A stretch of 64,000 nt of DNA from Clavaria fumosa (taxonomy: Eukaryota; Basidiomycota; Agaricomycetes; Agaricales; Clavariaceae). Shown here piece after piece: positions 302-25,590 of the stretch (position 1 is the first letter of the stretch; the number at the start of each line of letters is the position of its first letter). The translations under genes were made by a program, and so were the position numbers. The stretch is taken from positions 2,894,501 to 2,958,500 of the forward strand of contig OX637795.1 of NCBI GenBank assembly GCA_951802425.1. Reading direction: 5' to 3'. The notes below the pieces were generated by a model. That model did not search any database and was not told where the DNA came from. It worked only from the letters and a program-made list of their open reading frames with translations.

Positions 302-376
302 CGGGAGGGTTCGGTCACATGAGTGTGACAAGAATGCATTGTCTTGGCCAACGAAGGCCTCACGTGCCACCCTCTA
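302..376 (+). repeat. Repeat R1, copy 1, left part (interrupted by E1)
   Basis: This segment continues at 5970-6121 and matches 12574-12795 almost base for base. The Ty3 element E1 is inserted in it. The last five bases, CTCTA (372-376), are repeated at 5970-5974, while R1 copy 2 has this stretch uninterrupted near 12,645-12,655. R1 contains a TATA-like stretch (catataatg) and in this copy leads straight into a gag-like ATG at 6121, so it may be the promoter/5' region of an older element. That role is inference. Confidence 0.8.
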
Positions 377-666
377 TGTTAGGATCGCTTATGTAAGCCA
401 TCCCAAAGTGCAGTTGTGGAGAAACTGGGGAGGGTTGTTGGAAGGTCACATGACCTGTGGCTGTGGTCAGATTACATAATCGTAAGATCACATGACCTGG
501 GCCTGGGCGCATCACGTGATCCGAGAGGTCCGAGCGTGGGAACGCCGGCAAATGCCGAAGCGTTCGCTATATATACTATGTCTTTTCCATTCTTGTACCC
601 TTTTCCCCTTATCTTAGTATTGTCGTCATGACCTTACGCTTAAGTTGTGTGAGACCCAGTCTGATA
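377..666 (+). repeat. E1 left LTR
   Basis: This is a 290-bp direct repeat of 5680-5969. It contains a TATA-like tatatata near 568-576, probably the U3 promoter. Against the right LTR it differs at 543 (C versus T), 557 (G versus A) and 579-580 (TG versus CA). Each can be derived from an ancestral CG dinucleotide. Confidence 0.95.
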
Positions 667-1240
667 TAATACTAAGATCCGCCTGTCCGCCCTAGCCCCG
701 TGTCCTAACCCGGCTAGCCTGGACCCTTAATTTCAAACTGTGACACGTTGTCACAGCTCAGCCCCTATCATCCTCTTCTCCTTTACCCTGCCCGCAGTGT
801 GTAACAGAACTGCGCGAAATTTTTACTGTGTGTAGATACACGTGACCAGACCAGGAGGAAGTCAACTGTGACCCTCCCCAAGTGATACCGAGTGCCCAAG
901 GCCCGGAACTTTGTTTTACAGCTACGTACCAGTGAATCGTGTAGTGTACAGGGCAAGGAAAGGCCCCTACATAGTCTTTCTGTAGTTTCCTGGTCCAGTG
1001 GACAGGGCCCTTGCTCTGTGACCATTGTCAGAAGGGCGCACGGGCAACTCATTAGGAGTTGTGGAGCGACCACCTGGGACACCATTTGGGCCCCACGTTA
1101 ACAAAAGTTTCATAGAATAAGAGTTCTATAGGTACATAAGTACACAGAAGAGCAGCCTAAGAGGACAGGACTGTTAAGAGATCGAAGAAATCCTGAGTGC
1201 CCAAGGCCTGGAACTTTATTTACAGCATCCAGGGCCTGTG
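667..1240 (+). other. E1 untranslated leader
   Basis: This lies between the left LTR and the gag start. I could not recognise a standard primer-binding site directly after the LTR. A ~31-bp segment is duplicated inside the leader (890-921 and 1195-1225, beginning gagtgcccaaggc and ending in a pyrimidine-rich stretch plus ACAG). Each copy ends like a splice acceptor, so alternative leader splicing is possible but unproven. Confidence 0.55.
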
Positions 1241-1360
1241 ATGGCAGACCATGTCGCCCCGCCTGTAGCCCAACCTATGAGGCTTGACCTATCTGTTGCC
1301 CCCTTTGATGGGCAGAAAAGGAACTTCCGTACGTTCCTCTGATCCCTTCGCCTCCTGTTT

Positions 1361-4300
1361 ATGGCGAACCCGACTGTCTATGCTGTGGACCTGGTGAAGG
1401 TCCTTCTTGCTCTGAGCAAAATTACTGGAGAAGGATTCGCTGCAGAGTGGGCGAATATGAAGGCGGAAGAGATCCTGGGTAGTGGCGAGGCCGGAACCTG
1501 GGCAGAGTTTGTGGAGGAGATGAAGCGCGCATTCGATGACCCAAATGACCATGCAACTGCCCTTGCCAATATTGCAGGGCTGAAACAGGGTGCCATGACA
1601 GCACCAGAGTTCTTCGCAAAATTCAAGACACTGTTCCGACGGGTGAAGTTGAGTGCAGAGAAGGACTCAGGAATCCTAGTCCATTGGCTGGAGTTGAACC
1701 TGAGTAGGAGGTTGGTGGAGAGAATCTATGGTGTCTCCCCGATGCCAGAGACATATGGAGAATGGAAGGTGCTGGCTGAGAGGCTTGATGCCCAGCAAAG
1801 GCGACTGGATGGGATACTCACGGAATGGACACCGCAACCCACCGCAACCCTACCGCGACCTGCCGTGACCGTTTCGCAACCTCTTGTGACCCCTCTGCTG
1901 TGTACTCCAGATGTGGCCATGGCCCGAGGATGGGCCCCTGCTGATGAGAGATGTTGTTTCCGATGCCACCAGACTGGCCATGCTGTCCGTTTCTGCCCCC
2001 TGCCTGATACGCGTCTGCAGGTCCCAAGGGCCCAAACCCGGGCAGCACCATGTGCCCCCCAAATGGCGGAGGGATATGAGAAAGAGATTGCACGGCTCCG
2101 AGCCTGCATAGAGCTGTGTGAGAGAGAGAGGAGGACTCCCACTGGGGAGAAGAAGTGTGCCAGCCCCCTTTCCGTCCCTGTGCCTGCTGCAAGTATACCC
2201 CGATATACTATCTTGCAGCGGAGACATACCCGAATTGGGGCTGAGGCGAAGGAGGAAGTGAGACTGGCAGAGCGCCTAACCAGAGTGCGGCCAGAAGTGC
2301 AGAAACATGTGCCACGAGAGCTAGCCATCCAGGTGCACTTGGAGGCTTTCAGCACTGGCAAAGGGACCACAATGAAGGCCCTTGTCGACTCAGGGTGCAC
2401 CAACTGCTTCATGGATTTGGAGTGGGCGAAAGGAGTGGGACTGGAGCCATCTCTCCTGCTGAACCCAATCACCATGTATAATGTGGATGGGACACAGAAC
2501 AGGGATGGAAAGGTCCGATATGGGATAGAGGTGCTGGTGAGAGTTGGTGACCACCAGGAGCGGATCCACTTTCTGCTGGGAAAGACCCAGTCCCACAATG
2601 TCATCCTTGGGCATGACTGGCTCAAGCGGCATAACCCGGATATCGACTGGCAGAAGGCAGAGCTGAGCCTTACCCGCTGCCCCCCACAGTGTTCCCCATC
2701 CCCTCGAGCCCCTGCACCCCTGAAAACGAGTACCCTCACATCCACGAGTATTCTGGACACCCGTTTTCCCAACTCTGGCCCTACCCCCGATTGGCCCAGC
2801 CGCTACCCTTTGGTGTTTAGTGAAGCAAAGTGGGATGGACTTCCCCGCTCCCGACCAGACTTCGATATTAAGATCGAGTTCAAAAAGGACCCTGAGCACC
2901 TCTCCTCCAAGCTGTATTCTTTGACACGGCAGGAGATGGTGGAGATGAACCGTTGGGTGGATGAGCAGCTTGCTTCTGGACGAATCCAGCCCTCAAAATC
3001 CCCGTATGCCAGCCCCTTCTTCTTCAAACATGAGAAGGACAAACTGCGGCCAATCATCGACTACTCGAGGCTGAATGCACACCTGATCAAGGACAAGTAC
3101 CCCCTCCCCCGCATCCGAGACACAGTGGATGTGCTTAAAGGAGCGTCGATCTACTCTAAGATTGATGCAAAGGGAGGTTTCCCATCTATGCAGGTCTGGC
3201 CCAAGCACCAGCACCGCTGTGCCTTCCTGACACCCCGTGGACTCTTCGAACCAGCTGTCATGTGGTTTGGACTGCAGAATGCCCCTGCTACCTTCCAACG
3301 CTTCATGAATCATGTGTTGAGGGAGGAGATTGCAGGAGGACATGTGAGGGCCTATGTGGATGATGTCATTGTGTTTGCAGAGGACTTGGCTACACACCGG
3401 TACTGGATGGATCGGGTCTTGAGGAAGTTTGGAGAGAATGGGTTGTGTCTCAAACTCAGTAAATGCGAGTTTGAGAAGAGCAAGATCATCTTCCTGGGGA
3501 TGAAGATCTCCCACAACAGACTAGAGCATGATCCGGCCAAGGGTGCGGCAGTCCGAGATTGGCCACGTCCCAAGAATGTGAAGGATGTCCAGAGGTTCAA
3601 TGGAATGCTGAACTACCTCCGCCGGCACATCCCGAATCTTTCTGCCCGGGCAAAGCCACTCTTCCGGCTGACTGGGAATGTTCCATGGAAATGGGAGGAG
3701 GAGGAGGAAGCAGCCTTCCGAGATCTCTGCCAGGCACTCGTATCGGCCCTGGTCTTGGCTCTGCCTCAGGACAAAGGGAGATGGAAGGTAGAGACAGATG
3801 CAAGCAACCTGGCAACTGGTGGAGTGCTCTCGCAGCAGCAGATGGATGGAACCTGGAGAGTTGTTGACTATATCTCCAAGGCCCTCACTGCAGCTGAGAA
3901 GAACTACAATGTGTACGACAAGGAGTTCTTGGCTGTGATTCGGGCACTTCGCGAGTGGCGAGCATACCTCATTGGAGCAGAGGAGACGATTGAGATCTGG
4001 ACGGACCATGCAAACCTCCAGTACTTCCGGAAGCCCCAGAAGTTGAAGCTGAGGCAGGTTCGTTGGGTTGGAGAGCTCCAGTGCTTTGACTTTGAGATAA
4101 AGTATCGCACTGGCAAGTCGAATACAAAGGCAGATGCACTCTCCTGGAGACTGGACTATGGAGAGATGGTGGAGGAGGATGCACCGGTGCAGGTTTTCCC
4201 GGAAACGGAAGTCTGTGTGTCATTTACATCGGAAATGGAGACGCTACTCCAGAAAAATAGCGCGGTACACATACAGAAGCCGGAGGAGCTTGATGATGAG

Positions 4301-5668
4301 TGGACACGAGATCGTGCTGGACTCTGGCGGAAGGGGATAGTCACTTGGGTCCCCCTAGGAGCTTGTGAGGCCGTTCTTGAGTTTGAGCATGACCTCCCCG
4401 CTGCTGGACACCCTGGGCCCCGGAAGTTGAGAGCAGCACTAGTGAAGGGTTATTGGTGGCCGGACATGGTAAAAGATGCGGATCGGTATGCCCAGGGGTG
4501 TGAGACATGCCAGCGGACGAAGCCCGACCGTACCAAGCGTGCTGCCCCACTGCACCCCCATCTGGTGCCCGATGGTCCCTGGTCGGTGATTTCATGGGAC
4601 ATAGTCGGTCCCCTCCCCCTCTCCCGTGGACATAATGCCATCCTTGTTATTGTCGACAAATTCACGAAACGGACACTGCTCGAAGCGATTGGGCTCGACC
4701 TCACAGGACTTGGAGCAGCGCGTCTCCTCCGGGATCGAGTGTTTCGTGACCATGGAGTCCCTCACAAGGTTGTGAGTGACCGGGGGTCCCAGTTTGTGTC
4801 CCGCTTCATGAAGGAGTTCTACTCCATGATCCGGGTAAAGGCAAATCCAAGTACTGCCTTTCATCCACAGACTGATGGACAGATGGAACGGGCGAACCAG
4901 GAGATGGAGATCTATCTCTGGGCTTATGTGGACCATCTCCAGGATGACTGGGCTGAATGGTTGTCCACTGCGGAGTTTGCTCTTAATAATCGTGAGCACT
5001 CAGCGACAGGACAGACACCTTTCTTCCTCGATTATGGACGACGCCCATGGAATGGGGGGCTCCGGCCACCTTCTGAGGTGAACCCGGCGGCGGACGAGTG
5101 GATGGCTAAGCTCACAGAGTCCCGAAGAGCAGCCAAGGAGGCAATGGAGAAAGCGGTGGCAGCGATGAAGAAGAGCTACGATAAGGGGAAATGCCCAAGT
5201 CAGGAGTACTCTGAGGGAGATCTGGTCTGGCTGGATACTAGAAACTTGAAGATGGACCGGCCCTGTAAAAAGCTTGACAACAAGAGAGCAGGCCCCTTTG
5301 CAGTTGAGGAGAAGGTGGGACCTGCTGGGTATCGCCTCAAGCTCCCTCGGGCCTGGCGCATCCATCGGGTCTTCAATGAGTTGCTGTTGACACCATACCA
5401 CCCCCCCTCCTTCCCTTCTCAGAACCTGCCTCCCCCTCCACCCCCTACGATTGATGACGACCACCTGGAGTATGATGTGGAGGCGATCCTTGATGTTAAG
5501 AAGGTGGGATGTGGGGTGAAGTACTTGGTGAAGTGGTTGGGATATCCAGTGGAGGAAAACACTTGGGAGCCCCGTAGGAACCTCACTAACGTAACATTGC
5601 TTCTCCGGGACTTCTTCCTCTCCCACCCCGACAAGGCCAAGCTAGCTGGTCGGGACGCCCAGCCTTAA
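1361..5668 (+). CDS. E1 Gag-Pol polyprotein with chromodomain
   Basis: This 1,435-residue open frame encodes retrotransposon Gag and Pol. In order: a capsid-like N-terminal helical region, a CCHC zinc knuckle (CFRCHQTGHAVRFC, ~200-213), an aspartic protease (VDSG, ~343), reverse transcriptase with YVDD (~666), RNase H (TDAS, ~812), integrase with HHCC (GHPG to CETC, ~1017-1050) and the D, D, E residues (WDIVG, VSDRG, DGQMERANQE), a GPF-like motif (KRAGPF) and a C-terminal chromodomain (~1370-1415, ending NTWEP). The chromodomain probably guides insertion into marked chromatin. Upstream, the same frame is open from ATG 1241 (MADHVAPP) except for one TGA at 1340-1342, within FL-stop-SLRLLF, where related Gags would be expected to have arginine. 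So the true start is probably 1241 and this copy may be knocked out at that point. The stop lies 11 bp before the right LTR, leaving no room for an extra gene. Confidence 0.95.
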   Translation: MANPTVYAVDLVKVLLALSKITGEGFAAEWANMKAEEILGSGEAGTWAEFVEEMKRAFDDPNDHATALANIAGLKQGAMTAPEFFAKFKTLFRRVKLSAEKDSGILVHWLELNLSRRLVERIYGVSPMPETYGEWKVLAERLDAQQRRLDGILTEWTPQPTATLPRPAVTVSQPLVTPLLCTPDVAMARGWAPADERCCFRCHQTGHAVRFCPLPDTRLQVPRAQTRAAPCAPQMAEGYEKEIARLRACIELCERERRTPTGEKKCASPLSVPVPAASIPRYTILQRRHTRIGAEAKEEVRLAERLTRVRPEVQKHVPRELAIQVHLEAFSTGKGTTMKALVDSGCTNCFMDLEWAKGVGLEPSLLLNPITMYNVDGTQNRDGKVRYGIEVLVRVGDHQERIHFLLGKTQSHNVILGHDWLKRHNPDIDWQKAELSLTRCPPQCSPSPRAPAPLKTSTLTSTSILDTRFPNSGPTPDWPSRYPLVFSEAKWDGLPRSRPDFDIKIEFKKDPEHLSSKLYSLTRQEMVEMNRWVDEQLASGRIQPSKSPYASPFFFKHEKDKLRPIIDYSRLNAHLIKDKYPLPRIRDTVDVLKGASIYSKIDAKGGFPSMQVWPKHQHRCAFLTPRGLFEPAVMWFGLQNAPATFQRFMNHVLREEIAGGHVRAYVDDVIVFAEDLATHRYWMDRVLRKFGENGLCLKLSKCEFEKSKIIFLGMKISHNRLEHDPAKGAAVRDWPRPKNVKDVQRFNGMLNYLRRHIPNLSARAKPLFRLTGNVPWKWEEEEEAAFRDLCQALVSALVLALPQDKGRWKVETDASNLATGGVLSQQQMDGTWRVVDYISKALTAAEKNYNVYDKEFLAVIRALREWRAYLIGAEETIEIWTDHANLQYFRKPQKLKLRQVRWVGELQCFDFEIKYRTGKSNTKADALSWRLDYGEMVEEDAPVQVFPETEVCVSFTSEMETLLQKNSAVHIQKPEELDDEWTRDRAGLWRKGIVTWVPLGACEAVLEFEHDLPAAGHPGPRKLRAALVKGYWWPDMVKDADRYAQGCETCQRTKPDRTKRAAPLHPHLVPDGPWSVISWDIVGPLPLSRGHNAILVIVDKFTKRTLLEAIGLDLTGLGAARLLRDRVFRDHGVPHKVVSDRGSQFVSRFMKEFYSMIRVKANPSTAFHPQTDGQMERANQEMEIYLWAYVDHLQDDWAEWLSTAEFALNNREHSATGQTPFFLDYGRRPWNGGLRPPSEVNPAADEWMAKLTESRRAAKEAMEKAVAAMKKSYDKGKCPSQEYSEGDLVWLDTRNLKMDRPCKKLDNKRAGPFAVEEKVGPAGYRLKLPRAWRIHRVFNELLLTPYHPPSFPSQNLPPPPPPTIDDDHLEYDVEAILDVKKVGCGVKYLVKWLGYPVEENTWEPRRNLTNVTLLLRDFFLSHPDKAKLAGRDAQP

Positions 5669-5679
5669 GAGGGGGGTGA

Positions 5680-5969
5680 TGTTAGGATCGCTTATGTAAG
5701 CCATCCCAAAGTGCAGTTGTGGAGAAACTGGGGAGGGTTGTTGGAAGGTCACATGACCTGTGGCTGTGGTCAGATTACATAATCGTAAGATCACATGACC
5801 TGGGCCTGGGCGCATCACGTGATCCGAGAGGTCCGAGCGTGGGAATGCCGGCAAATGCCAAAGCGTTCGCTATATATACTACATCTTTTCCATTCTTGTA
5901 CCCTTTTCCCCTTATCTTAGTATTGTCGTCATGACCTTACGCTTAAGTTGTGTGAGACCCAGTCTGATA
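5680..5969 (+). repeat. E1 right LTR
   Basis: This is the 290-bp partner of 377-666, preceded by a short purine tract (aagaggggggtga). It is followed at 5970-5974 by the CTCTA target duplication and then by the rest of repeat R1. Confidence 0.95.
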
Positions 5970-6121
5970 CTCTACTCCTCGCAATCCATCGCGTCTCGCA
6001 GTCCCAGATGACATCATGCTCTCCTTCCTGTGCCTACATATAATGTCCTTGCCCTCCTTACCCCTCTCCCCAGACTCCCCATTCCTCCCCCACACCTGAC
6101 ACATCACCTCTCCTTGCATTA
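5970..6121 (+). repeat. Repeat R1, copy 1, right part
   Basis: This continues 302-376 beyond E1 and matches about 12650-12795. It ends at the ATG of the gag-like relic at 6121; R1 copy 2 diverges at the same point. Confidence 0.8.
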
Positions 6122-8500: not shown

Positions 8501-9934
8501 CTACATGGGTTCGACTGGGACCTCCTCAAAAAGGAACCATCTCCATTCCAGACTCAAAGAGGTCGAAATTCACTCCGTCAACATCCATTCTTCTCTTTCA
8601 CTCAATTGCTGCTCCAGGGTCATCCCATTGAGCAGTTCGCACCTCCTCACTGCATGCGTTCGCTGCGTGTCTTGCCCGCCTGAAATCGGCCTTCATCTGC
8701 CTATTCCCACCTCAGGACTTCCTAGATGATGTGCGACGGCTGGCTGGGGCATTCGAATCGAGGCATATGGGCCGGGGCAACCTGTCCCCTTCTTTGTCGA
8801 TGCCTCGTCGATGCCTCAACAGTGCTGGGGGATCGGGCTCGTTTATGGGGGCGGATGGCTCGCCTGGGCGCTGCTAGAGGATTGGAAGATCGGGCTCGTT
8901 TGCTGGGGCGGATGGCTCGCCTGGCCGCTGCTGGAGGATTGAAAGGTAGTCGGCTGTGTCGTTGGTTGGGCAGGGATGGTAGCCCTCGAGTTGGCGGTGC
9001 TGGCTGCGGCCCAGAAGGACATCGGAGCGTAGTACTCGCATTGGCTGCAGGTTGCTCCCATGGAACCGGCCAGAACGCTGTACTCCAGCGCATCCAACTG
9101 GTTCTCTACGAACATTACCTGTGGTTACAAGTGTTACGGATCCCATCCATGCACAACCCGGCCGTCGGCCCATCCCGTGGTGGCCCTCCTGCATACCCCG
9201 CCCAAGGTGCCGGCCTGCCTGCCCATTCGTCGGGCACGCCGTTGTTAATTCACGCACAACCCGGCCAATGGACCATCCCGCGGTGGCCCTCCCGCCTACC
9301 CTCCCGCCTACCCGCCTCCCCTTCCCGCCCAAGGTGCTGGCGCAACCCGGCCGATGGGCCATCCCACTGTGGCCCTCCCGCCTACCCTTCCCGCCCAAGG
9401 TGCCGGGCTGCCTGCCCCCATTCGTCGGGCACGCCATTGATTTTCTAGGGGTCGCAGCAGGACGGTTCAACTCCCTTCGTCGTTTTCATGCATTGGATCC
9501 CTCACTGTTTTCATGTACTTTGTCACCGCCCAGCCATGGGCGTCGTCCTTTCGTCGCCTCAGTTCTTTCGTAGTGTCAGCCTCTGTCTCACCTGTTGTAT
9601 TGTCTCACTGGTAGTATCTTCCATGGCCTGTGCATCAGTAGTGCGAATCTGCCTGTTGGTCCCCACCTGGAAGAGAGTGTTAATCTCAGTTGAGGCCACT
9701 ATCGTGCTCTGAGTCGATCATCGCGATGGCCCTCGGCGCCATCATGGTAAGTCACATTGAGGCCTCGGCCTCGCCGGGCGCCTGGATGCGCCTGGTGATG
9801 TGTCGAATGCGCCTGGTGATGTGTCGAATGCGCCTGGTGTTGTATCGGAGCCCCGGCGTAACTGCAACAAGGGCGTCACAGCTTACCTTGTTTTGTGCAT
9901 CATGAGGAACATCCCTGGGCAGGACTGTCTCACT
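8501..9934. repeat. GC-rich decayed DNA with three short tandem-repeat blocks
   Basis: Three tandem blocks are visible: two copies of a 57-bp unit (8831-8944, starting gatcgggctcgttt), about three irregular copies of a 90-100-bp unit (9151-9440, starting gcacaacccggcc), and three copies of a 21-bp unit (about 9,786-9,843, gatgtgtcgaatgcgcctggt-like). Open frames here follow the repeats and do not look like proteins. Confidence 0.6.
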
Positions 9935-13048: not shown

Positions 13049-13805
13049 TATAAATCAGCCAAAGAAATACATTGTTATTGCAACCATTATGTCAGGACCC
13101 ATCCATTTTTCCCTTGCCCAAACTGACTTTACCAGCACCTACGAGCCTCCTGACATCCCTCTACAACCTCGCGAACTCCTCTACACACTTCCGGAAGCCT
13201 CCCCGACCTCTACCGCATTCACATGACATTCGCGACTATCATACTATATTCGCGTCACCTCCCGCCACCTTACCCTACATGTGTCTACCACCTGAACCTG
13301 CCAAATTGAGGCGCAACACACAGTTATGCAATCTTTCTCAGCTGGCACATGACTTGCCACACGGCACCACCAACATCACTAGCATTACCCGCATTACCAG
13401 CATTATCCATGTGACTTCCCGCCCAAGTGTCACCTGTGTCACTATTACCATCCACATGACTGCATGCATGGACCTTGCGACCTTAACGATGAAACACACT
13501 GCCAATGGCCAGTTGAGCACTACTTCGAATTATGCTTCCTTTCTTCTCCCCAGTCATCTATAACTATGATAATTATGACCAAAGCATCTCTTCGTAACTA
13601 TAGTTACCCATATGATTATTTAACTAAGTCATGACCCATGACCGGTCAGGTTCATGACCTTACTTATGTTTCCCTTACCCCTCGCGACCTTAGTAGAACA
13701 TGTCCATAGTCACTTTATGACTGACCATACCCTGTACTACTATAGTTCTGTCACTTGGCAACCTCTGTACTTTTCCTTTTCCATTATACTCTCTGTACAT
13801 ATGTA

Positions 13806-15435
13806 CAGTGAGGGACAAAACTGTTGCAATGTTGAGTCATTTTGCATTATCATCCATGTTATGTAACATTTAAGAAGGGTAAAATTAAGTAAAAATATAC
13901 ACTGGATAGACCTACGTCTTGGCTATATTTCAGCTTTTATCTCATCCAGATCTATCCATTATTCATTAAGAAAATAAATATTTTGTATGGGGGTAGCATT
14001 GCAACAGTTTTGTCCCTCACAGTTCAGGGTAAAGAAAACTCTATTTATCAGTATTTGGTATGGCCCCCTTTGGCCTTTAACACTGCCTCAACTCTCCTAG
14101 GCATACTTTCAATAAGTCCCTGGCACACTGATGCATCTATCCCATTCCACTCCTTCTCCACCCTGTCCCAAAGCTCCAGTATTCCACCAGGTGGCTTGTC
14201 ATATGCCCCAAGCTTCTTCTTCAGGTGATTCCATAAATGTTCAATAGGATTGAGGTCTGGGGACTGTGCTGGCCATGAGAGGACCCTGAAACTATTGTCT
14301 TGGAACCAAGCCTTGGCCTTCTTGCTGACATGTTTGGGGTCATTGTCCTGTTGGAAGATGACATCTCTGGAAGTTTTGTCATAATAGGTGAGGCTGGCTT
14401 GAAGATCCTCCTCCAAGATTTTGGTGTAGAGCTCTGCATCCATCCTACCATCAATCTTGACTGCATAGCCAGGTCCTTCCCACATCATGCACCCCCACAT
14501 CATCAGAGATCCCCCCCCAAACTTCCTAGTCCCCTGCACAAGCCTATCACTCAGGCCCTCCCCTGCCTTTTTCCACACCCATCTCCTCCCATCTGAACCA
14601 AAACGATTAATCTTGGTCTCATCAGACCAGACAACCTTCTTCCAATCCTCCACAGTCCAATCTTGGTGGCTGACAGCAAAATCCATCCTCTCCTTCCTGT
14701 GTCTCTGAGACAGTGAGGGTTTCTTCTGCTTCACCACAGCTTTCATCCCAGCCTTCTGCAAGCCACGACGTACAGTTTTGGAGGAGAGGGGCTGGTTGGT
14801 GATATCCTGAAGAGATTTGGTGATTTGGGTGGCATTCTCAGCCTTCTGGGATGAGATAAGGTGGAGGGCATAGCGAATGTTGGCATCAGAGAGGAGGGAG
14901 GGTCGACCACCAAGGGATTTGGAAAGGGAGGAACGATGTTTGGAGCGAAGCCTGGAGATGGTGCTGGTGTGGACTCCAGTCAGAGAGGATATCTGATGGG
15001 CAGAGTGCCCAGAATCAAGCAGAGAAAGGATGTGATTAGCCTGAGTAGTGGTGAGGGGCTTCATGCTGCTCTGAGCTCTGGGGGGAGGATGGTTGCACCC
15101 CAAGGGGGTGTATATATACCACAAAATGAACCAGTCACCTGACATTGTTGATTGCAATGTGTGGCTGTGCTCTATTTTGTAGCAAATCAACAAAATCAGG
15201 TGACTTTGTACCATCAGACTGGAAGGGACAAAACTGTTGCAATGCTACCCCCACACAAAGTATTTAATTCCTCAGTGATTAATGAATGGATTTATATGGG
15301 ATAAATGTTGAAATATAGCCAGGAAGTAGGTCTATTTAAAGAATATTTTTAGCCAATTTTATCTCCAATATATGATATGTAATACAGATGACAATGCAAA
15401 ATGACCAAACATTGCAACAGTTTTGTCCCTCACTG
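13806..15435 (-). mobile_element. Tc1/mariner transposon in the E2 left LTR
   Basis: This 1,630-bp element starts cagtgagggacaaaactg and ends with its reverse complement, flanked by TA duplications (13804-13805, 15436-15437). The right LTR of E2 shows the empty site. The terminal repeats continue with lower identity for over 100 bp. Each end also has an inward inverted copy of the tip (about 13,998-14,024 and 15,221-15,246), so each ~220-bp end is itself MITE-like. It carries one intact transposase gene. Confidence 0.95.
14048..15064 (-). CDS. Tc1-family DD34E transposase
   Basis: The enzyme would cut and paste its own transposon at TA sites. From the ATG at 15064 it is 338 residues, the usual length for this family. 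The longer frame from 15214 adds a 50-residue extension without family character, and a TATA-like run near 15,108-15,116 favours the shorter form. Seen: an N-terminal helix-turn-helix region (SAHQISSLTGVHTSTISRL), a GRPS linker, catalytic D in WSDETKINRFG, second D in QQDNDPKH and E in SPDLNPIEHLW, with 34 residues between the last two. The frame has no premature stop and ends with TGA. It is intact and inside perfect termini, so possibly mobile. It is younger than the LTR it sits in. Confidence 0.93.
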   Translation of the reverse strand: MKPLTTTQANHILSLLDSGHSAHQISSLTGVHTSTISRLRSKHRSSLSKSLGGRPSLLSDANIRYALHLISSQKAENATQITKSLQDITNQPLSSKTVRRGLQKAGMKAVVKQKKPSLSQRHRKERMDFAVSHQDWTVEDWKKVVWSDETKINRFGSDGRRWVWKKAGEGLSDRLVQGTRKFGGGSLMMWGCMMWEGPGYAVKIDGRMDAELYTKILEEDLQASLTYYDKTSRDVIFQQDNDPKHVSKKAKAWFQDNSFRVLSWPAQSPDLNPIEHLWNHLKKKLGAYDKPPGGILELWDRVEKEWNGIDASVCQGLIESMPRRVEAVLKAKGGHTKY

Positions 15436-16131
15436 TATATAAAGTCTCACATGTACTTACAGTACTCCAGACTTGATATTGACACACTTTGGTTTAAGCT
15501 TGAGGCCACAACGCCCTTTGAGCTTGGAACCATTGCGATTGATAGGTCTTGTCTCTCTTGGTGACCTCAAGATTGTCAAGACACTTCTAACTCATCCTCT
15601 GCACTCATATAAACTCGCGCGCTTAAGTATTCTCTCTTATTCGTCTTGATACTGATTCCTTCGAACCCCACAGGTTCTCTCGTTGGTTGACAAAGTCATT
15701 GCATTCACTGATACACTTTTCAACATTGTCACAACCACCTGCGACTCTCTCAACATCGTCTATTTCTCTCTCCTTGTCTATTTCTTCCTTTACGCTTCAT
15801 TGGTTGACTTCGCGACCCTCTCAATGTTATCTACTTCTCTCAACTTGTCTTTTTCCCTCTTTATACTTCGTCTACCGACCTCGCGACCTTCTTAGCGACG
15901 TCTCTCTCCTCTCTACTTGTTTCTCTTCATCCTCACATTCTCTTAGACATTCTCGCAACCTTCCGGGACTGAGCATTATCGACTGTGCTCAACAGTTGAT
16001 TGGTCTCAGCAAGTTTCTAGAACTGGTCACCAACAAGTCGACCTTCGGTATTACTTACAAGACAGGACAGGCCCTAACATTATATCAAGTCTCCCTTGCC
16101 CCACCACTCAACACCCAGATAACACCCTATT

Positions 16132-18299
16132 ATGTCTTCCAGTCACACTCCTCCCCAACCAACCACTCATCACTTCCAGACATGCACAGGTAGCCGCGTG
16201 ATCACTCCAATGATTTTGGAGACTACTCATGAGCCGCCTACCACCGTTCAAGAGTGACCCACGTCCGTCGTTCAATCACAGCCTGAAGAACCCGCCCAAA
16301 TCGCACCTAGCCACACTTCGTCCCCCCATGAAGAAGCTGAGTCCCTCGTGGAACAGTTTGGCTACCTGCGCTTCGACCATCCTTGCCACCGCACTTACCA
16401 AATCCTCAACAATACTCGCCGTCAGTATGAAACGGGAACCCTCGATGAAGAACTAGCCTACCTCATCGAAACAACGAACCTCTACAAGGCATTAGTACAA
16501 TTGATGGATGGATTCCATGCTAATCCACAAAACCGATTGTACGAGAGTCAGCGACAGTATCCAGGGACAACTGACTGTGGAGTTCCCACTCCTCCTGACC
16601 TGGATACCCCCTTGCGACCTCCGAGACAGATTCAACCTGCCAGAGGATTCTGGGATATGGCCCTGCTATTCCAGGTTGCGGCCCAATCTCTTCAGAATTT
16701 CGCGAATCCTGCCGCACCCGACAAGCGACCCACCATTGTCTCTAGGATCCCAAAGTACACCGCCCCCCAAAGCAGCTGGCCCACTTGGACACAACCAGCA
16801 ACAACTCCGAGCAGGGTGCTCCCTCGCGATCCTATAGGGACCGAAGCAACACTTTTTTTTTTCTTTTTTTTTTTTCCTCATTTATTCTCTGTTGGGGCAT
16901 AGCCCTATGGTCGAGATATGTACAGTGTAGTTCTGCCCGCGTCACCTCTCCCCTGCCTTCCTCTGCCATGCGCAAAGCAACACTTCAGCCTGCCCCTCAC
17001 CTCAAAGTACCAGTCAGACCCTTCCGTATTCCTCAAACAGAAGTACGACCAGTACCCCCGATGGAGACACGACCAGCATCCCGCCCCCCATCTCAGGCCA
17101 AAGCCCTGCAGGACCCCTTGATCCCTCCTATGCCTCCACACCTTGCCGCCATGCTTCGAGATGAGGCCCCTGGTACCCACCACCACCACTACTATTACCA
17201 GGCCCCTCCCTCTGAAGGACCATCAGCTCGAGATGCCTTTGCTCGAGAATCCAAGCTTGATACTAGGCGCCCCGAGCCGTTCAATGGTCACGATCGACGC
17301 AAGTGGAAGCCCTTTGTCACAGAATGCCTTATGACTTTCTTCGTGAAACCCATAACCTTCCAGGGAGACCATGAGAGGGTTACTTTCGTGGCCTCTTACC
17401 TCACGGACACTGCGCAGAGCCACTACACCTCCCTCCTTCAATTCAATGCCAAACATCCAGCCCTACACTCCTGGGAAGGATTCATCTGTGAGTTTGGAGG
17501 AATGTTTGGAGTAGTTAATACACAGATCGAAGCAGACCAGAACCTCCATATGTTGCAGATGGGCAAAAATGAGCGGTTCTCAAACCATATTATATGCTTC
17601 GAGTCTTTTGCCTTTGAATCCAACTGGAATTCTGCCGCTCTACAATCAGAACTCTACCATTCGCTGTCCACACACATCAAAGAGGCCATGAAAGTTATTC
17701 CGCAACCTACAACATACCAAGAACTTCGAGATTTGGCGATGCAAATAGACCAAGAACTTCGAGATTTGGTGATGCAAATAGACCAGAGGCACTGGGAGTA
17801 TGAGAGTGAGACTTGCCGAACTCAAATCCACACTAACCCTCCTGCTCCTTGTCCTCCTGCTCAACAAGGCAGAAGTCGTCCCTTTACTCAACAAGGCGGA
17901 AATCGCAACCTTCAAACAATGTCGCAACCCTATCCTGCTGCTAGCAACAACCCTACGACACCCCGTCCAACTACAGGAAACCCTGTGACCACACCACGAC
18001 CCGCCAATCCGCCTCACCAACCGAATCTGAATCTGAATCTGCCCTACATCCCCCTTAGCGATGAGGAACGAGAATGACAATGTCAGGGAAATTTGTGTCT
18101 GAGATGTGGGAAACCCGGACATTATAGCGCTACTTGTCCCAATCGATGAGTAACAGGACGAGCCATGTTTACGCTGGAAGAAAGAGAGGAAGACTTCCAG
18201 GAAACGTATGAAGTCAAGGAAGAAGTGGAAGAGCATGAGGATGACCCGCACAAAGAGTTAAACAACGAAGCAGCTCAGGAGCTTCCGGGGGAACTCTGA
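16132..18299 (+). pseudogene. E2 gag (broken)
   Basis: Structural Gag frame starting at ATG 16132, 52 bp after the LTR (MSSSHTPPQP). It reads in one frame to 16854, then is displaced by a 131-bp retroposed insertion and resumes in the shifted frame (EATL before, KATLQPAP after). The capsid-like core (~17,250-17,760) contains EPFNGHDRRKWKPF and a duplicated ELRDLAMQIDQ segment. A CCHC knuckle CLRCGKPGHYSATC lies at ~18,092-18,135. In-frame TGA codons at 16255, 18075 and 18147 probably replace CGA. The final TGA at 18297 may be the natural end. Pol follows in the -1 frame, as expected for programmed frameshifting. Confidence 0.85.
16844..16985 (-). mobile_element. Short poly-A retroposon inserted in E2 gag
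   Basis: A ~120-bp insert (16855-16974) is flanked by 11-bp direct repeats AAGCAACACTT (16844-16854, 16975-16985). On the minus strand it ends with AATAAA (in gagaataaatgagg) and a long A-run with one G. These are marks of LINE-mediated insertion of an RNA 3' end. It could be a 5'-truncated LINE, a SINE or a processed mRNA fragment. I see no tRNA-like boxes. Excising it restores continuous gag reading. Confidence 0.85.
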
Positions 18300-18328
18300 G
18301 TTGCGATGACAAACCAACCCCCATACTC

Positions 18329-21300
18329 GTGTGGGCCGCGACTAGTCTCTCCTCTCCTCAGTCTCCTCGTGACTTTTCTAATATGCCTATTGCTTCCCAG
18401 TCCTCCCAATCTTTCCTCATAAAAATGCAAATACCAGATTTCGGTTCGACTCCTCTCAATACTCTTGTTGACTGTGGTGCATCAATGAATTTTATCGATT
18501 TTACCCTTGTGAACACCCGTCCAAACCTTCTAATGCCGCTCCCACAATCCCTACCTCTTCAATACTTCGATGGAAGTTCTTCCAACTCCAATATCATGCA
18601 TTACATCCTTGCTAATACAAAGTTCCCTGACAATACCATCCAATCTATCAAATTCCTTGTTACTAAAACTCATCCCCTTACTCCCATTGTTCTAGGGCTC
18701 GACTGGTTGCAAACCTGGAACCCTAGGATTGATTGGACCAATCTCTCCCTTAGTTTCAGACAAACAGCCCGCTCCGCGACTATTCCCCTCACCATTCTGG
18801 ATGCGAAACCCCCAAGTAAACCCTCCCTCGACCTTGTGAACTTGACCCTGAAACCCCCTAAACCCTTACGAGTTCAACTGGTTAAGGCCACCACACTTCG
18901 CCGCTTAGAGCAACAAGGAGAATTCATAGGTCTCCTATACTTCCAGCCTGTGAACAACCCCTACGACAACGAATCAATACTTGCGAGTTCCGCGACCACC
19001 CAAACCTCTCCCCCGAACCCAGAAGAAATAGTTCCACAAGAGTACCACGAATACATGGATGTATTTTCCGAAGCCTTAGCCCGGGAACTACCTCCGCACC
19101 GCAACTATGACCACTGAATTGAACTTGAGGAAGGCGCAACACCTCCTCATGGGAAACTATACAACATGTCAGAAGTGGAATTAAAGATGTTGAAGGATTA
19201 TTTGGACGACATGTTGGAGAAAGGCTTCATTCGGCCATCAAAGTCACCCACGGGTGCACCGGTACTCTTTGTGAAAAAGAAAGATGGAAGCCTTCATCTC
19301 TGTGTCGATTACCAGGGCCTCAACAAGATAACCCGAAAGAATCGCTACCCAATCCCCCAAATTGAGACCCTCGTCGACCAATTATGATCAGCCAAAGTCT
19401 ATTCAAAAATTGACCTTTGTGCTGGGTACAATAACATGAGGATAGCTGAAGGAGACAAGTGGAAGACTGCCTTCTGCACTCGCTACGGTGCGTTCGAGTA
19501 TCTTGTCATGCCTTTTGGACTCACGAACGCACCCGCGACCTTTCAGCACCTTATGAACGATATCTTCCACGATTTAGTCGACGTCAACGTAGTCGTCTAC
19601 CTCGATGACATCTTGATCTATTCAGATAATATCGAAGAACATCATGACCATGTCCGAGAGGTCCTACAATGACTACGTGAGGTGAACCTACACACGCGAC
19701 CCGAGAAGTGTGATTTCCACACTGCAATGGTCGAGTACCTTGGAGTTATAGTGTCCCCCAACGGAATTGCGATGGACCATTCAAAGATTCAAGCCATCCT
19801 CAGCTGGCCCATACCCATGAAAATTCGTGACCTTCAGAGCTTTTTAGGTTTTGCTAATTTTTACCAGAGATTCATTGACAACTATTCAGGTATCGTCATT
19901 CCACTTACGCGACTCCTCTGCAAGGATATGCCGTGGAAGTGGAGCTCGCGATGTCAACAAATCTTCGAAACTCTCAAGCAGGCCTTCACCGAAGCTCCCG
20001 TCCTCTGACACTATGACCCCGACCACCCTATTACCCTTGAATGTGATGCTTCCGATTATGCCATAGCAGCCATTCTATCCCAGACTGATCCTGCGACCAA
20101 CAAATTATGCCCCATCGCCTTTCACGCACGAACGATGATCACTGCAGAGCTCAATTATGACATATACGACAAAGAGCTCCTTGCGATCCACGAAGCTTTC
20201 AAGCAATGGCAAGCATACCTCGAGGGTGCGAGATATCAAGTTCAGGTCTTCTCCGATCACAACAATCTACATTATTTGACCACTACGAAGCAACTTAGCT
20301 GCCGACAAGCCTGCTGGGCTGAGTATCTTTCCAGTTTCAATTATGTAATTCATTATTGAGCAGGAAAACTAGGTGCAAAGCCAGATGCCCTCACCCGACA
20401 ACCCGACGTCTACCCGAAGAAGGCTGACCAACCTGCGACCAATGCACAAAACAACAAGGTCGCAATACCGCCGGAACTCCTTTGAGCAGCTGTCATACTC
20501 AACGAAGAGGCTCTATTCTCACAAATCCGACACACTCCTCATGACCTTTACTTCTCCAGAAAGTCTCAAGACGCTTCACAAGGTTGCGACAAAACATTCT
20601 CACTTTCACCCAACGGTTCACTATTACTTCAAGATGGCAAAATATATGTTCCCAACCATGACTCTCTCCGATTCGATATTCTATGCTCCAACCACGATCA
20701 CAAACTACGAGGACATCCAGGTATAAGGAAGACAACCCAGCTAATAAATAGGTTGTTTTTCTGGCCAGGATTCAGAAAGGACATAACCGCCTACGTCCGT
20801 GGTTGTCACACCTGCGCAAGGGCAAAACCTGTCTGACACAAACCCTATGGACTCCTCAAGCCCTTGCCCATAGGCGAGTGACCTTGGTCTTCGATCTCGA
20901 TGGACCATATCGAAGCCCTCCCCCTCTCTGCGACCTTTGACTCGATTCTTGTTATCATCTGCTGACTTACGAAGCAAGCAATCTTTATCTCCTCCAACAC
21001 TACTGACACTGCGAAGGAACTAGCCCAGCATTTCGTCACCCATGTCTTCTCAAAACACAGACTACCTGCGGATATAGTGTCAGATAGAGGGAGATTATTT
21101 GTTTCCAAGTTTTGGTCTTTGTTATGTCAAGCTCTGGATATTACTTCAAATCTCTCCACAGCTTACCACCCAGAGACTGACGGACAAACAGAGCGAGTCA
21201 ACCAGATCTTAGAACAATACATCCGAATATATACGAACTATCAGCAAGACGACTGGACCTACCAACTTCCACTCACCAAGTTCGTATATAATAATACCCC

Positions 21301-21964
21301 ACACAGCACAACTGGCGTCTCCCTGTTCTTTGCAAACAAAGGATACAACCCTCGGCTTACGATTTCTCTCAATGACATACCCGCACACGAGGCCCACATG
21401 GTCGCGACCGATCTCAAGACCCTCCACCAGCACTTACAAGATCAAATCAAGGTCGTGAACGAGGCCTACTCATGCTTTGCAGACCAGAAGAGAGAAGTCA
21501 CGCTGGATTGGAAGGAAGGGACTAAAGTTTGGTTAGATTTGCGAAACGTGAAGATGAAGAGACCGATAAAGAAACAGGATTCGAAACGAGCTGGACCTTT
21601 CTCTATACTTGCAAAAGTTTCGACTCACACTTATCGCCTCCAGTTGCCAAAATTGATGCAAGGAATTCACGATGTCTTCCATGTTTCATTACTCGAGAAG
21701 GTCTACGACGACGCCTTCCCCCAGCGACAACAGCAACCCCCACCCCCTATCAAAGTTGACGGCAAACAACACTACAAAGTCACTGACATACTAGATTCTC
21801 GAAGGAGGGGTAGGAAAGTGCTCTACCTCGTACATTGGGAAGGTTACGGACCTGAGGACGACACCTGGGAGCCCATTGAATCACTTTCCGGCTCAAAGGA
21901 ACTCTTAAAGGATTTCCACACAACCTACCCGGAAAAACCCCGCGCGACCCACGCAACTCAATAA
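18329..21964 (+). pseudogene. E2 pol (all stops are TGA)
   Basis: Full-length Pol in a single frame: protease (VDCGASMNF, ~18,470), reverse transcriptase (YLDD, ~19,600), RNase H (ECDASDYA, ~20,040), integrase (zinc motif ending CHTCARAK; SMDHIEA, VSDRG, DGQTERVNQ), GPF-type motif (KRAGPF) and a chromodomain near the end (YLVHWEGY..DDTWEP). No frameshift is seen, but there are nine premature stops, all TGA: 19115, 19385, 19670, 20006, 20357, 20483, 20834, 20879 and 20963. Most sit where the family has arginine. At 20879, 20963 and 20006 the sister fragment E5 has CGA, CGA and CGG. The natural stop is TAA at 21962-21964, about 100 bp before the end of the antisense gene. Confidence 0.93.
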
Positions 21965-22059
21965 TTTTCCTCCCCTCCTTTTTGTTTTTCTTCACTTTCT
22001 CACTCCAGATTTCACAGCAATTCATATACACAATAAAATTACAACAAGAAAAATTTTAT

Positions 22060-24080
22060 TTACTGGTCGCGAGCCTTTTCCTTCCCCTTTCGCGACCCTT
22101 CTGCCTCATCTACCTCTTCCACACTGGGACTTTTCTCCTCTGTCTGCTCTCCCTTCTCCTCCTCGACCAATCGCCTGGTCTGGTCCACTTGCAGGAACCC
22201 CATTAACTCGGCCCGCAATCGATCCTGCTCCTTCTCCACCCATTTTGTCACCAATGACAACTCCACCCCACTCGACAGCTTATGAAGTAACTCTTCATAA
22301 CCGAAGAATACCACTTCTAAACCACGATGCCCCCGTGTGCGGAATTCGCTGATTTGTCCACGTAATGTCAGCAAAACCCCATCCATCCCTAGCAGACTGT
22401 CAAACATCAACTCATTTTTAAATCCAATGAGTCACTTACTTTCTTTCTCCCATGCAACCTTTCTAAAGCACCCCTCATCTCCTGTGATTCTCCCCACGCT
22501 TCCTCTAATATTTTCAATGATTCTGAAAATGAAGATCAACATATTTTGACCATCATAATTACGGGACTTACCCTTGTAGTCTCCTCGCGACTTCTCCAAC
22601 TCAAGTTGCACCTCCTCCAACTCATGTCACGTTCCCCGGAGATTGACCTCTTGTTCTAATAAGGAAAAGAAGGAATAAGTTTAAGTATGCATAAAAAACA
22701 AATGAAACTCACCTTGCCATTCCCCATGGAGAGCCTCGAAATCTCTCTCCACCTCCTCCTTCTGCGACCTTTACATCCACCTCACTGGACATGGATACCT
22801 TTGTCGAGTCCACTCCCATCTCCTTAACTTCTCTGCCCTTCCCTACAGACTTGTGACTTTAGTAAAGTCATGGAATGCCAGGAAAATATTGGAACTTACC
22901 TTTTCTGCCCTTTCGCGTCTCTCTCCCCCTCACTATCTCCAAATCTCGACATGCCTCCTTCAATTTTTCATCTTGCCCTGATACAAAATTTTAATCGGCG
23001 ACATGGTAACATAAAAAGCAATTACTTACTCCAGTAATCCCTCCAGAGGATTTTAAAATTCCTTTCGAATTCCTCGTATTCATCCCTTACTGCGGCCAAC
23101 TCCACCTCCAGCTCCGCCTCCCTCGAGGACTTTGGCACCCACACTATCTTCTGCGTGGGCTCTGCGACTTGCTGTCGGAGCATTGCGAGCTCCCTCTTGA
23201 GATCGGCCCTCGGGATCAAAGTCCCCACGACCTCCTCCTGTTCCTCCACCAACTCCCTCGACAATGCTGGTTTCGCGACTCACCTCCTTGTCGACAACTG
23301 CGACCTTGTCCTCACCCGTTTCCCGCATCCTGCTCGCATCGGGGTCCCCGGAATCGGTAGGGTGGGAAGCCTTCCCCCTACTCGGCTCGCAACCTTGGGC
23401 ATCGCTGTGCCCATCGCTTCTGATCCTTCGGCACTCTTCAACGCCTCGTCGACCTGTGCATCATCCCACCCATATTCGTTTTTGACACGCCATCGACGAA
23501 ATTTCTGGACCCACGAGCATTTCCTGTGATCCTCCGCACACTGACGACATTTGCCGGCAGCGCTGCGCTCGCACTGCCGGCCCTTTGCAACACAGTTGTT
23601 GCAATCCTGTGATTCAGCGATTAGAAACGAGATGGAGGAATGAGAAATATTGCTACGCACCTCTCGCTCCATCCCATTCCACTCCTTATTTTCCTTCACT
23701 GATCCGATTTTCTTCCATGCTTTTAAAAATTCCACAGGCAATGGATCTGTTACACCCACGGAGTTACCCCCCATCTCGCTGGAGTTCGCGATGCTACCTG
23801 CCGCCTCGTTCGTAACCGCAACGTCACCCATTGACCCGCTTGGCCCTGCGATGTCGTCCCTCGCCTTGCTGGGACCCGCGACCTTACTCTTCTTCCCCTC
23901 ATGCTTCGCGACTTCCTCGCAAATGCGCATGCAATGCGCCTGTTCTTCTTTTTGCCGAGTTAGTAACTGGGCCAGGGCTTCTTTGTCACGGTCAGGCTCG
24001 GCCTTTTCGTACTCTTCGTACATGCGTGTCTTGTGCTTGAGCTGAGTTTCGGTGCATTTGAGGACATTGGAAGAGACCAT
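22060..24080 (-). CDS. Antisense, multi-exon Zn2Cys6-like gene inside E2
   Basis: A spliced gene on the strand opposite to gag-pol, convergent with pol and ending ~100 bp from it. Start ATG at 24080 (MVSSNVLKCTETQ). Exon 1 (24080-23661) is charged, with a repetitive GPSKARDD/GPSGSMGD stretch. Exon 2 (23606-23030) holds six cysteines, CNNC through KCRQC to RKC, spaced C-x2-C-x6-C-x7-C-x2-C-x6-C, which is the fungal binuclear zinc-cluster pattern. Canonical introns: 23607-23660, 22978-23029, 22843-22899, 22656-22712, another from 22571, and one before the last exon (donor gtaagt, acceptor gacag near 22,390-22,440). The last exon ends with TAA (22060-22062) followed by AATAAA. A TGA at 23280-23282 lies in exon 2, either a CGA loss or a splice donor (GTGAGT). 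Function unknown: a DNA-binding regulator is possible. A similar gene lies in E7. Confidence 0.65.
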
Positions 24081-24197
24081 GGTGGTTGTACTTATTTTTT
24101 TTTGTTTGGGTGTTGTGACCTGATCAACAAACATTGCGCTGACTAATCATCATGTGATCTCCACTCTCGCAGGGCTCGAGGCTTGAAGGGGGGGTAA

Positions 24198-25585
24198 TGT
24201 CAGGACCCATCCATTTTTCCCTTGCCCAAACCAACTTTACCAGCACCTACGAGCCTCCCGACATCCCTCTACAACCTCGCAAACTCCTCTACACACTTCT
24301 GGAACCCGCCATCCCCTTCTGGAAGCCTCCCCGACCTCTACCATGTTCACACGACACTCGCGACTATCATACTATACTCGCATCACCTCCCACCACCTTA
24401 CCCTACGTGTGTCTACCACCTGAACCTGCCAAATTGAGGCACAACACACAGTTATGCAATCTTTCTCAGCCGGCATGTGACTTGCCGCACGGCACCACTG
24501 ATGTCACTAGCATTACCTGTGTTACCAGCATTATCCACGTGACTTCCTGCCCAAGCGTCACCTGCATCACTACTACCATCCACGTGACCGCACACATGGA
24601 CCTTGCAACCTTAACGATGAAACACACTGCCAATGGCCAGTTGAGCACTACTTCGAATTATGCTTCCTTTCTTCTCCCCAGTCATCTATAACTATGATAA
24701 TTATGACCAAAGCATCTCTTTGTAACTATAGTTACCCATATGATTATTTAACTAAGTCATGACCCATGACCAGTCAGGTTCACGACCTTACTTGTGTTTC
24801 CCTTACCCCTCACGACCTTAGTAGAACATGTCCATAGTCACTTTATGACTGACCATACCCTGTACTACTATAGTTCTGTCACTTGGCAACCTCTGTACTT
24901 TTCCTTTTCCGTTATACTCTCTGTATGTACGTATATAAAGTTTCGCATGTACTTATGGTACTCCAGACTTGATATTGACACACTTTGGTTTAAGCTTGAG
25001 GCCACGACACCCTTTGAGCTTGGAACCATCACGATTGATAGGTCTTGTCTCTCTTGGTGACCTCAAGATCGTCAAGACACTTCTACTCTATTCTAACTCA
25101 TCCTCTGTGCTCATATAAACTTGTGCGCTTAAGTATTCTCTCTTATTCGTCTTGATACTGATTCCTTCGAACCCCACAGGTTCTCTCATTGGTTGACAAA
25201 GTCATTGCATTCACTGATACACTTTTTGACATTGTCATGACCACCCACGACTCTCTCAACATCATCTATTTCTCTCTCCTCATCTATTTCTTCCTTTATG
25301 CTTCGTTGGTCGACTTCGCGACCCTCTCAACATTATCTACTTCTCTCAACTTGTCTTTTTCCCTCTTTATACTTCGTCTACTGACCTCGTGACCTTCTTA
25401 GCGATGTCTCTCTCCTCTCTACTTGTTTCTCTTCATCCTCACATTCTCTTAGACATTCTCGCGACCTTCCAGGACCAAGCATTATTGACTGTGCTCAACA
25501 GTTGATTGGTCTCAGCAAGTTTCTAGAACTGGTCACCAACAAGTCGACCTTCGGTATTACTTACAAGATGGGACAGGCCCTAACA
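24198..25585 (+). repeat. E2 right LTR
   Basis: This 1,388-bp LTR is preceded by the purine tract and followed by CATTA. It preserves the empty site of the Tc1 transposon, near 24,925-24,945. Confidence 0.95.
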
Positions 25586-25590
25586 CATTA

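Follow-up and report, generated by a model that had tools for sequence, protein, structure and literature searches.

Plant Ty3 retrotransposons carry antisense open reading frames (ORFs) between pol and the 3' long terminal repeat (LTR), whose function is given as unknown in passages of PMC7264820, and in the fungus Botrytis cinerea the Boty-like Ty3 elements carry an antisense gene, brtn (Zhao et al. 2011, as mentioned in citing papers). Among other mobile elements, VANC proteins bind to motifs that recur within the VANDAL family encoding them, and methylation is lost as a result (parts of PMC5735166 and PMC10398659), and different VANCs affect different VANDAL families (the same parts of PMC5735166). 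Basidiomycete DNA transposons carry TET/JBP dioxygenase genes with a likely anti-methylation role (parts of PMC12730594). Here we describe an antisense gene in a Ty3 element, E2, of the basidiomycete Clavaria fumosa. The DNA analyzed, hereafter the window, is a stretch of 64,000 nucleotides (GenBank assembly GCA_951802425.1, contig OX637795.1, positions 2,894,501 to 2,958,500 of the forward strand), and within it E2 carries, between pol and its 3' LTR, an intron-containing gene on the opposite strand that encodes a cysteine cluster.

The HBZ gene of human T-cell leukemia virus type 1 (HTLV-1) has a spliced form, and its product is a bZIP protein. HBZ is an antisense retroelement gene with a nuclear protein product and a promoter in the 3' LTR (passages of PMC11963269 and PMC7264820), and in this it offers a likeness to the present gene, but the antisense proteins tested here gave no bZIP match in Pfam. 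The likeness to plant aORF-3R (Grande gene23, RIRE2 and Retand/TRP28) lies in a suspected nuclear or DNA-binding product (passages of PMC7264820 and PMC11963269); the genes described here differ in being fungal, in encoding cysteine-cluster proteins instead of TRP28, in having several introns, and in occurring as divergent versions in four families, two of them with a dispersed motif. The word 'intron' is absent from the main text of both of these papers on aORF-3R. brtn is likewise an extra antisense gene in a fungal Ty3 element, a likeness drawn from mentions of brtn in other papers and not from its sequence. The TET/JBP systems are alike in that a basidiomycete transposon carries a likely anti-methylation gene, but they are enzymes in DNA transposons, whereas the proteins described here are of a DNA-binding type and belong to LTR elements. 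The survey 'LTR retrotransposons in fungi' (PMC3248453) uses neither 'zinc' nor 'antisense' in its main text, and among the top results of searches in open-licence literature no title or abstract describes an antisense gene of Zn2Cys6 type for a fungal Ty3 element.

The antisense gene of E2 and its family

The antisense gene belongs to the retrotransposon itself, being both conserved and under selection. In E2, whose family we call family I, it has the following parts, given in window positions:

24080-22060, minus strand: family I antisense gene, decayed copy; ATG at 24080, stop codon at 22062-22060, seven exons and six introns
23660-23607, minus strand: intron 1, 54 nt, immediately preceding the cysteine cluster
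23029-22978, minus strand: intron 2
22899-22843, minus strand: intron 3
22712-22656, minus strand: intron 4
22571-22523, minus strand: intron 5
22439-22397 or 22439-22389, minus strand: intron 6, with two possible ends
23603-23517, minus strand: zinc-cluster-like motif CX2CX6CX7CX2CX6C, sequence CNNCVAKGRQCERSAAGKCRQCAEDHRKC
22060-22055, minus strand: AATAAA, overlapping the antisense stop codon
24081-24197, minus strand: 117-nt block from the antisense ATG to the 3' LTR, containing a polypurine tract

The initial annotation of this DNA, made from its letters, had reported at least five canonical introns, a poly-A signal and six cysteines spaced 2-6-7-2-6; the six introns located here are all GT..AG (43-57 nt), and the AATAAA and the cysteine spacing are likewise present. 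An intron that lies antisense stays in the genomic RNA of a retrotransposon and hence survives reverse transcription, so it is the antisense position of the gene that allows its introns to be retained.

We searched the whole genome (48.76 Mb in 17 contigs) for further copies. The E2 gene gave 70 matches in a DNA search, and its exon 2 protein gave at least 151. For the pairing of genes with integrases within a limit of 4 kb, 150 gene matches (142 after merging, many of them fragments) were entered together with 123 integrase matches (121 after merging), the latter being the best 121 of 2047 candidates. A scored integrase lies within 4 kb of 63 of the 142 merged gene matches and the gene is antisense and 3' of pol in all 63; the other 79 have no scored integrase inside that distance. 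Counted from the integrase side, 62 of the 81 scored family I loci carry the antisense gene. A family I gene is found near none of the 29 integrase loci with less than 50% identity and near one of the 11 with 50-55%, and this sole case (L032) is a family I gene end and LTR beside a family II element. The initial annotation had proposed such a survey and had named absence from all other copies, together with the lack of any spliced antisense transcript, as the outcome that would speak against it; the survey instead finds the gene to be common in the family.

Twenty family I loci were fetched, and in 16 of these the gene lies antisense between the end of pol and an LTR. The exceptions (L018, L019, L020 and L023) are rearranged, truncated or missing one neighbor, with gag rather than pol adjoining the gene in L019 and L023. 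For the alignment we used 19 copies, namely E2 and 18 copies from 17 of the 20 loci (L017, L020 and L023 were left out). Intron 1 is kept in all 19 copies at a length of 51-55 nt. Its ends are conserved, with CpG-type changes at the donor, and its branch site resembles TTCTAAT. Outside CpGs, divergence at codon positions 1, 2 and 3 of exon 2 is 0.156, 0.140 and 0.339 per site, that of intron 1 is 0.262 per site, and the 117-nt block, a candidate 5' untranslated region or promoter of the antisense gene, is the least divergent class in the aligned region at 0.095 per site. The ratio of nonsynonymous to synonymous divergence (dN/dS) in exon 2 is 0.05-0.34 over 99-100 codons for 28 pairs from 8 copies, with several dS values near saturation; the scan covered fifteen sequences, of which its search pattern did not pick up L013 and L022, and L010, L011, L024, L026 and L027 were found and left unpaired. 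As judged from these alignments, the family I antisense gene is under purifying selection. A chance ORF was rejected on the conserved introns and the exon 2 dN/dS.

It is very improbable that the antisense transcript works as RNA, either as a source of small RNA or through interference, with its coding capacity incidental. Antisense transcripts with possible RNA roles are reported from other retroelements (passages of PMC7264820), but the exon 2 dN/dS range, the frame-consistent exons and the conservation of introns all stand against such a role here.

The E2 copy itself is damaged, with an in-frame TGA in exon 2 and, by eye, a frame-breaking deletion in exon 4 relative to L009, and the full antisense protein is not producible from it. 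Since pol is also split into separate frames, E2 is a decayed copy. The earlier claim that the gene is carried in a form that stays spliceable is supported at the level of the family. For L025, splicing of eight exons can give a frame of 558 codons that contains a single in-frame TGA. By eye, the family I protein has its cysteine cluster in the first third, followed by a basic stretch and coiled-coil-like exons. On the gene strand of L025 (1189-1764), exons 3-7 are 99, 63, 84, 63 and 63 nt long and all of phase 1, and in four of these five internal exons the number of encoded residues is divisible by seven, as would follow from duplication of coiled-coil exons.

The remainder of E2 is laid out as follows:

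13090-25585, plus strand: element E2, a decayed, LTR-bounded chromodomain Ty3 copy
13085-13089, no strand: left target-site duplication (TSD), CATTA, 5 bp
25586-25590, no strand: right TSD, CATTA, 5 bp
13090-16079, plus strand: 5' LTR, split by a Tc1/mariner-type copy at about 13800-15441
24198-25585, plus strand: 3' LTR, with TCGCGAC copies at 24358, 25316 and 25459
16258-18077, plus strand: gag region with interrupted frames; matches to Retrotrans_gag and DUF4939 fall short of the cut-offs
18245-21964, plus strand: pol region; protease-like, reverse transcriptase (RT)/RNaseH, integrase, SH3_Tf2-1 and chromodomain parts in separate frames

The LTR bounds and 5-bp TSD reported earlier are both confirmed. 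E2 has the features of a Ty3/gypsy chromodomain element: LTRs of about 1.39 kb each with TG...CA termini, a 5-bp TSD, and gag, protease and integrase followed by a chromodomain. RT/RNaseH was identified by eye, without a profile scan. The last pol frame, which ends at 21964, matches SH3_Tf2-1 (1.8e-16) and Chromo (2.4e-14) in Pfam; the rve, protease and gag matches are below cut-off in this decayed copy. The Tc1/mariner-type element in the 5' LTR (13800-15441, by eye) has 224-nt terminal inverted repeats that are 80% complementary and an uninterrupted frame of 398 amino acids.

Two further observations concern loci elsewhere in the genome. In L026 (129-347 / 9018-9901) a family I element is nested in a family I LTR, and the flanking LTR matches overlap by 5 bases (LTR 215-219) in the manner of a target duplication. 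L030 (G000:C2:31500-36500) and similar sites, many of them near contig ends, hold near-equal-scoring fragments of the antisense gene with about 67% identity over 52 residues.

Divergent antisense genes in families II, III and IV

Three further Ty3 families have divergent antisense genes of their own, again with this type of cysteine cluster, at their integrase loci: at 11 of 11 in family II, 18 of 29 in family III and 134 of 139 in family IV. Every gene-integrase pair in these families has the gene antisense and 3' of pol, with no other orientation seen. The pairing limit was 4.5 kb; 27 of the 41 family II and 60 of the 125 family III gene matches were entered, and inspection by eye placed all of the excluded matches more than 4.5 kb from any integrase without a paired gene. 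For family IV, 139 of the 151 integrase and 140 of the 147 gene matches were entered, second pieces and short fragments being excluded.

The family II integrase is 51-54% identical to that of E2, and the antisense cluster of L033 reads CERCVFASVQCIGVAEMSCDRCAWQKRSC. For family III the integrase identity is 44-46%, and the cluster of L034 and L035 reads CARCHRLGVACVWPSGG(R/Q)GTACNACAGAKQKC. Family IV is also represented in the window:

50042-51548, plus strand: family IV antisense gene; cluster at 50996-51082, CEECARKRRACYGVEGVACRWCQTYKVSC
55151-54627, minus strand: end of the family IV integrase

Two adjacent transposase-like frames (by eye; 51900-54143, minus strand) separate this integrase end from the antisense gene. 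Family IV was probably amplified recently, because 29 of its integrase matches, most in long open frames, have one equal score and 35 of its gene matches likewise share one. The gene of L038, in a five-exon model that was the best of 12 splice combinations, encodes an uninterrupted protein of 440 amino acids. By eye, the proteins of families I and IV have a C-terminal SRKGKE stretch in common, which hints at a common origin.

Fungal Zn2Cys6 (GAL4-type) clusters follow the pattern CX2CX6CX5-12CX2CX6-8C. All four families fit this spacing, with a middle loop of 7 residues in I, II and IV and of 10 in III. We call the proteins Zn2Cys6-like because the spacing fits while the Pfam profile Zn_clus stays below its cut-off. 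By eye, Arg replaces the first cysteine in L036, and the decayed L012 and L019 each lack one cysteine. A six-frame scan of the window and L001-L034 for the cysteine pattern matched only these genes or others of the same kind. In a public protein collection there is one homologue for family I, 11 for family III and four for family IV, one of them named 'hypothetical protein' and the others unnamed; the family I homologue, P0001, has 44% identity and intron 1 apparently read through. Going by these matches, sequences of this kind are deposited elsewhere too. A comparison of IMG/VR contigs with P0001 gave six pattern-matching stretches, none of which was confirmed.

Zn2Cys6 proteins are typical fungal regulators, and 16 Zn_clus matches are found in this genome, both of which count for a captured host transcription factor carried by one or a few copies. 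Such a capture is nevertheless extremely unlikely, given that in four families most scored loci carry the gene and that no element protein tested reaches the Zn_clus cut-off. A recent single host capture is rejected on that same distribution; ancient capture of a host gene is possible. The initial annotation had proposed that the element mobilizes its own transcription factor or a captured host regulator. What stands of this is an antisense, spliceable, Zn2Cys6-like gene of the element's own; a one-off capture does not, since the gene is standing equipment of the family, with divergent versions in three more.

Dispersed motifs in the element bodies

Copies of a short motif are scattered through the elements of two families, TCGCGACC in family I and ACTCCG in family III. 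The sites in E2 are distributed as follows:

13169-25465, no strand: 23 TCGCGA / CGCGACC-type sites, in the LTRs, gag, pol and the antisense gene

In an unbiased count of hexamers against dinucleotide shuffles, CGCGAC and TCGCGA are the top two hexamers of L025, E2 and L026. L025 has 43 CGCGAC against 7.0 expected and 29 TCGCGA against 3.9; E2 has 22 against 2.2 and 18 against 1.4. The E2 segment used in this count and in the table of families by motifs spans both LTRs, so its LTR sites are counted twice. In L025, gag, pol and the LTR all contain sites, as do exons and introns; the two short untranslated stretches have none. Across families, CGCGACC is enriched in all five family I segments (9-24 against 0.4-2.2 expected) and in none of nine others, and ACTCCG is enriched in all three family III segments (21-37 against 3.0-6.3) and not in family I. 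Family II shows an excess of TCCGCA (13 and 14, each against 2.7) and of ATTCCG (13 against 3.1, twice), and family IV one of TCCGGA (12 against 2.3 in L038 and 8 against 1.7 in its pol part). A high-order ranking of k-mers does not place the family I motif on top, because sub-words of the motif are enriched too. Genome-wide, AAGGTCGCGA occurs 1143 times and its reversed control 270 times.

As a control we used the window's other Ty3 element, E1 (376-5976), the single intact gene-less element compared, whose LTR ends are 98% identical and which has one uninterrupted frame of 1441 amino acids. Its 3' LTR follows directly after pol and leaves no space for an antisense gene. No excess of CGCGACC or ACTCCG was seen in E1, in the stretch at 40.8-43.6 kb or in two other stretches of the window. 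At 51.9-64 kb there are 4 TCGCGA against 0.5 expected, which for a palindrome means two sites. Elsewhere in the window, 43939-46070 is an inverted repeat with 1045-nt arms, 100% complementary and 42 nt apart, within tandem repeats; it is either very recent or an assembly effect.

Synonymous-codon shuffles of the pol frames, for which L037 was picked for its long frame, place CGCGAC first in L037 of family I (14 against 2.8, with TCGCGA 10 against 2.4) and ACTCCG first in L035 of family III (20 against 5.8). ACTCCG is also in excess in L034 (10 against 3.0) and L036 (18 against 6.6), a different hexamer coming first in L036; TCCGCA in L033 of family II stands at 7 against 1.2, and the top hexamer of the control E1 at 5 against 0.9. 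The motif sites in pol are spread over all three frames. These shuffles reject the idea that the motif in family I and family III pol stems from protein sequence plus codon usage. With a 30-bp spacing filter, the top hexamers of 12 control segments, some of them overlapping, have a median z-score of 4.6 and a maximum of 9.6, and the three highest values (7.0, 7.6 and 9.6) overlap repeat arrays. The motif hexamers of families I and III have z-scores of 5.0-10.8 in 10 segments, the low end overlapping the controls, and another hexamer comes first in two of the 10 (E2 pol and L036). On these counts the dispersed motif is convincing in families I and III and suggestive in families II and IV.

In the 3' LTRs of family I, motif copies close to the LTR end recur about every 72 alignment columns (1179, 1250, 1322 and 1394), which suggests tandem units with one TCGCGACC each.

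An autoregulator of LTR transcription, comparable to HBZ, would have its antisense promoter near the 3' LTR and act positively or negatively on the 5' LTR, sites elsewhere being incidental. The gene does lie directly upstream of the 3' LTR and is antisense with introns to be spliced, the LTRs are motif-rich, and the model of family III relatives has long helices. Even so we regard this explanation as improbable: the excess in pol goes beyond codon and protein constraint and falls in all frames, which LTR control does not need. Since the motif covers the coding body and not the LTR alone, control of the promoter by itself explains it poorly.

Rather doubtful, too, is the possibility that the motifs are unrelated to the antisense protein. 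They would then stem from a host factor, from biased mutation or methylation, or from integration and chromatin tethering, and the gene would act otherwise, for example by targeting new insertions into old copies. That families II and IV have the gene and a weak motif excess, that an excess of CTCCG[AC] is common to families II and III, and that one family I copy sits inside a family I LTR (L026) would all fit. Against it, the motifs of families I and III differ and neither is enriched in the other family, and E1, though a single intact gene-less element, lacks both gene and motif.

A candidate self-recognition system

We lean towards the view that the element encodes, in this gene, a DNA-binding regulator directed at itself: a Zn2Cys6-like nuclear protein with coiled coils, which would recognize the DNA of its own family. 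The gene would be transcribed, spliced and translated, its cysteine cluster would bind zinc, and the protein would bind DNA, the dispersed motif being its putative binding site. By coating its own element through this motif, the protein would allow the element to recognize its own copies, and the coating might then counteract host silencing, whether by CpG methylation or through heterochromatin, in the way that VANC acts on VANDAL elements in Arabidopsis. Self-recognition is the simplest account that uses both the gene and the motif.

The ratio of observed to expected CpG is 0.77 in E2, 0.55 in the remaining window, 1.14 in L025 and 0.05 in the subtelomeric L030. Because CpG-type decay differs so greatly between copies and repeats, methylation-linked silencing is suggested to act on them, and counteracting it would be the likeliest benefit to the element. 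That the protein does counteract host silencing of its own element is put forward tentatively, by analogy with VANC.

VANDALs are Mutator-type DNA transposons. The likeness to VANC/VANDAL, drawn here from gene and motif sequences, lies in an element-encoded protein together with a short motif that recurs through the family of that protein, in families I and III and weakly in II and IV. The two differ in that VANC21 sites lie in non-coding regions (parts of PMC5735166), whereas the sites described here are also in pol. The fuller proposal is that each family's antisense protein binds a motif accumulated through its own element body and that protein and motif have co-diverged, making up a self-recognition and anti-silencing system parallel to and independent of VANC/VANDAL; we offer it as a possibility, and one on the unlikely side.

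Several results weigh against this reading. The initial annotation had assigned the cysteines to a GAL4-type zinc cluster and proposed a profile check. The spacing agrees, but no protein tested reaches the gathering score of Zn_clus (PF00172, 21 bits): the cluster of window family IV scores 15.4, the best value, family III 14.0 and family II 13.9, the full family IV protein has no match, and the family I protein has none at E-values up to 10. AlphaFold models have low confidence (predicted local distance difference test, pLDDT) in the cluster, and a sequence search of the Protein Data Bank matched no solved zinc-cluster chain. Within the distance limits, a matched gene is absent at 19 of the 81 family I and 11 of the 29 family III integrase loci. 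The motifs of families II and III overlap, with the shared CTCCG[AC] excess standing at 19 against 7.0 and 18 against 6.3 in family II. The motif z-scores of family II (4.5-5.2) and family IV (6.1, L038) are within or near the control range, and the window's family IV segment is led by an unrelated hexamer (z 4.6). CpG retention at family I motifs is 0.553, compared with 0.498 at other CpGs and 0.458 at non-motif CGCG (21 targets, rows not independent); this effect is small, and protection from methylation is thus not demonstrated. E2 as a whole shows less CpG depletion than the remaining window (0.77 against 0.55). Finally, motif positions in 14 LTRs are mostly common to the subfamilies, so independent gain inside family I is not demonstrated either.

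Antisense Ty3 genes, known from plants and one fungus with their function unknown, are found here with a cysteine cluster of a DNA-binding type, and the locus shows a way for an element copied through RNA to retain an intron-rich gene. In families I and III the short motif through the element offers a candidate target, and the function of the antisense gene thereby becomes a direct question of binding. If the pairing of protein and motif is borne out, some 'hypothetical' proteins of fungi would be element genes, and sequence-specific self-recognition would have arisen in fungal retrotransposons separately from the Arabidopsis VANDALs.

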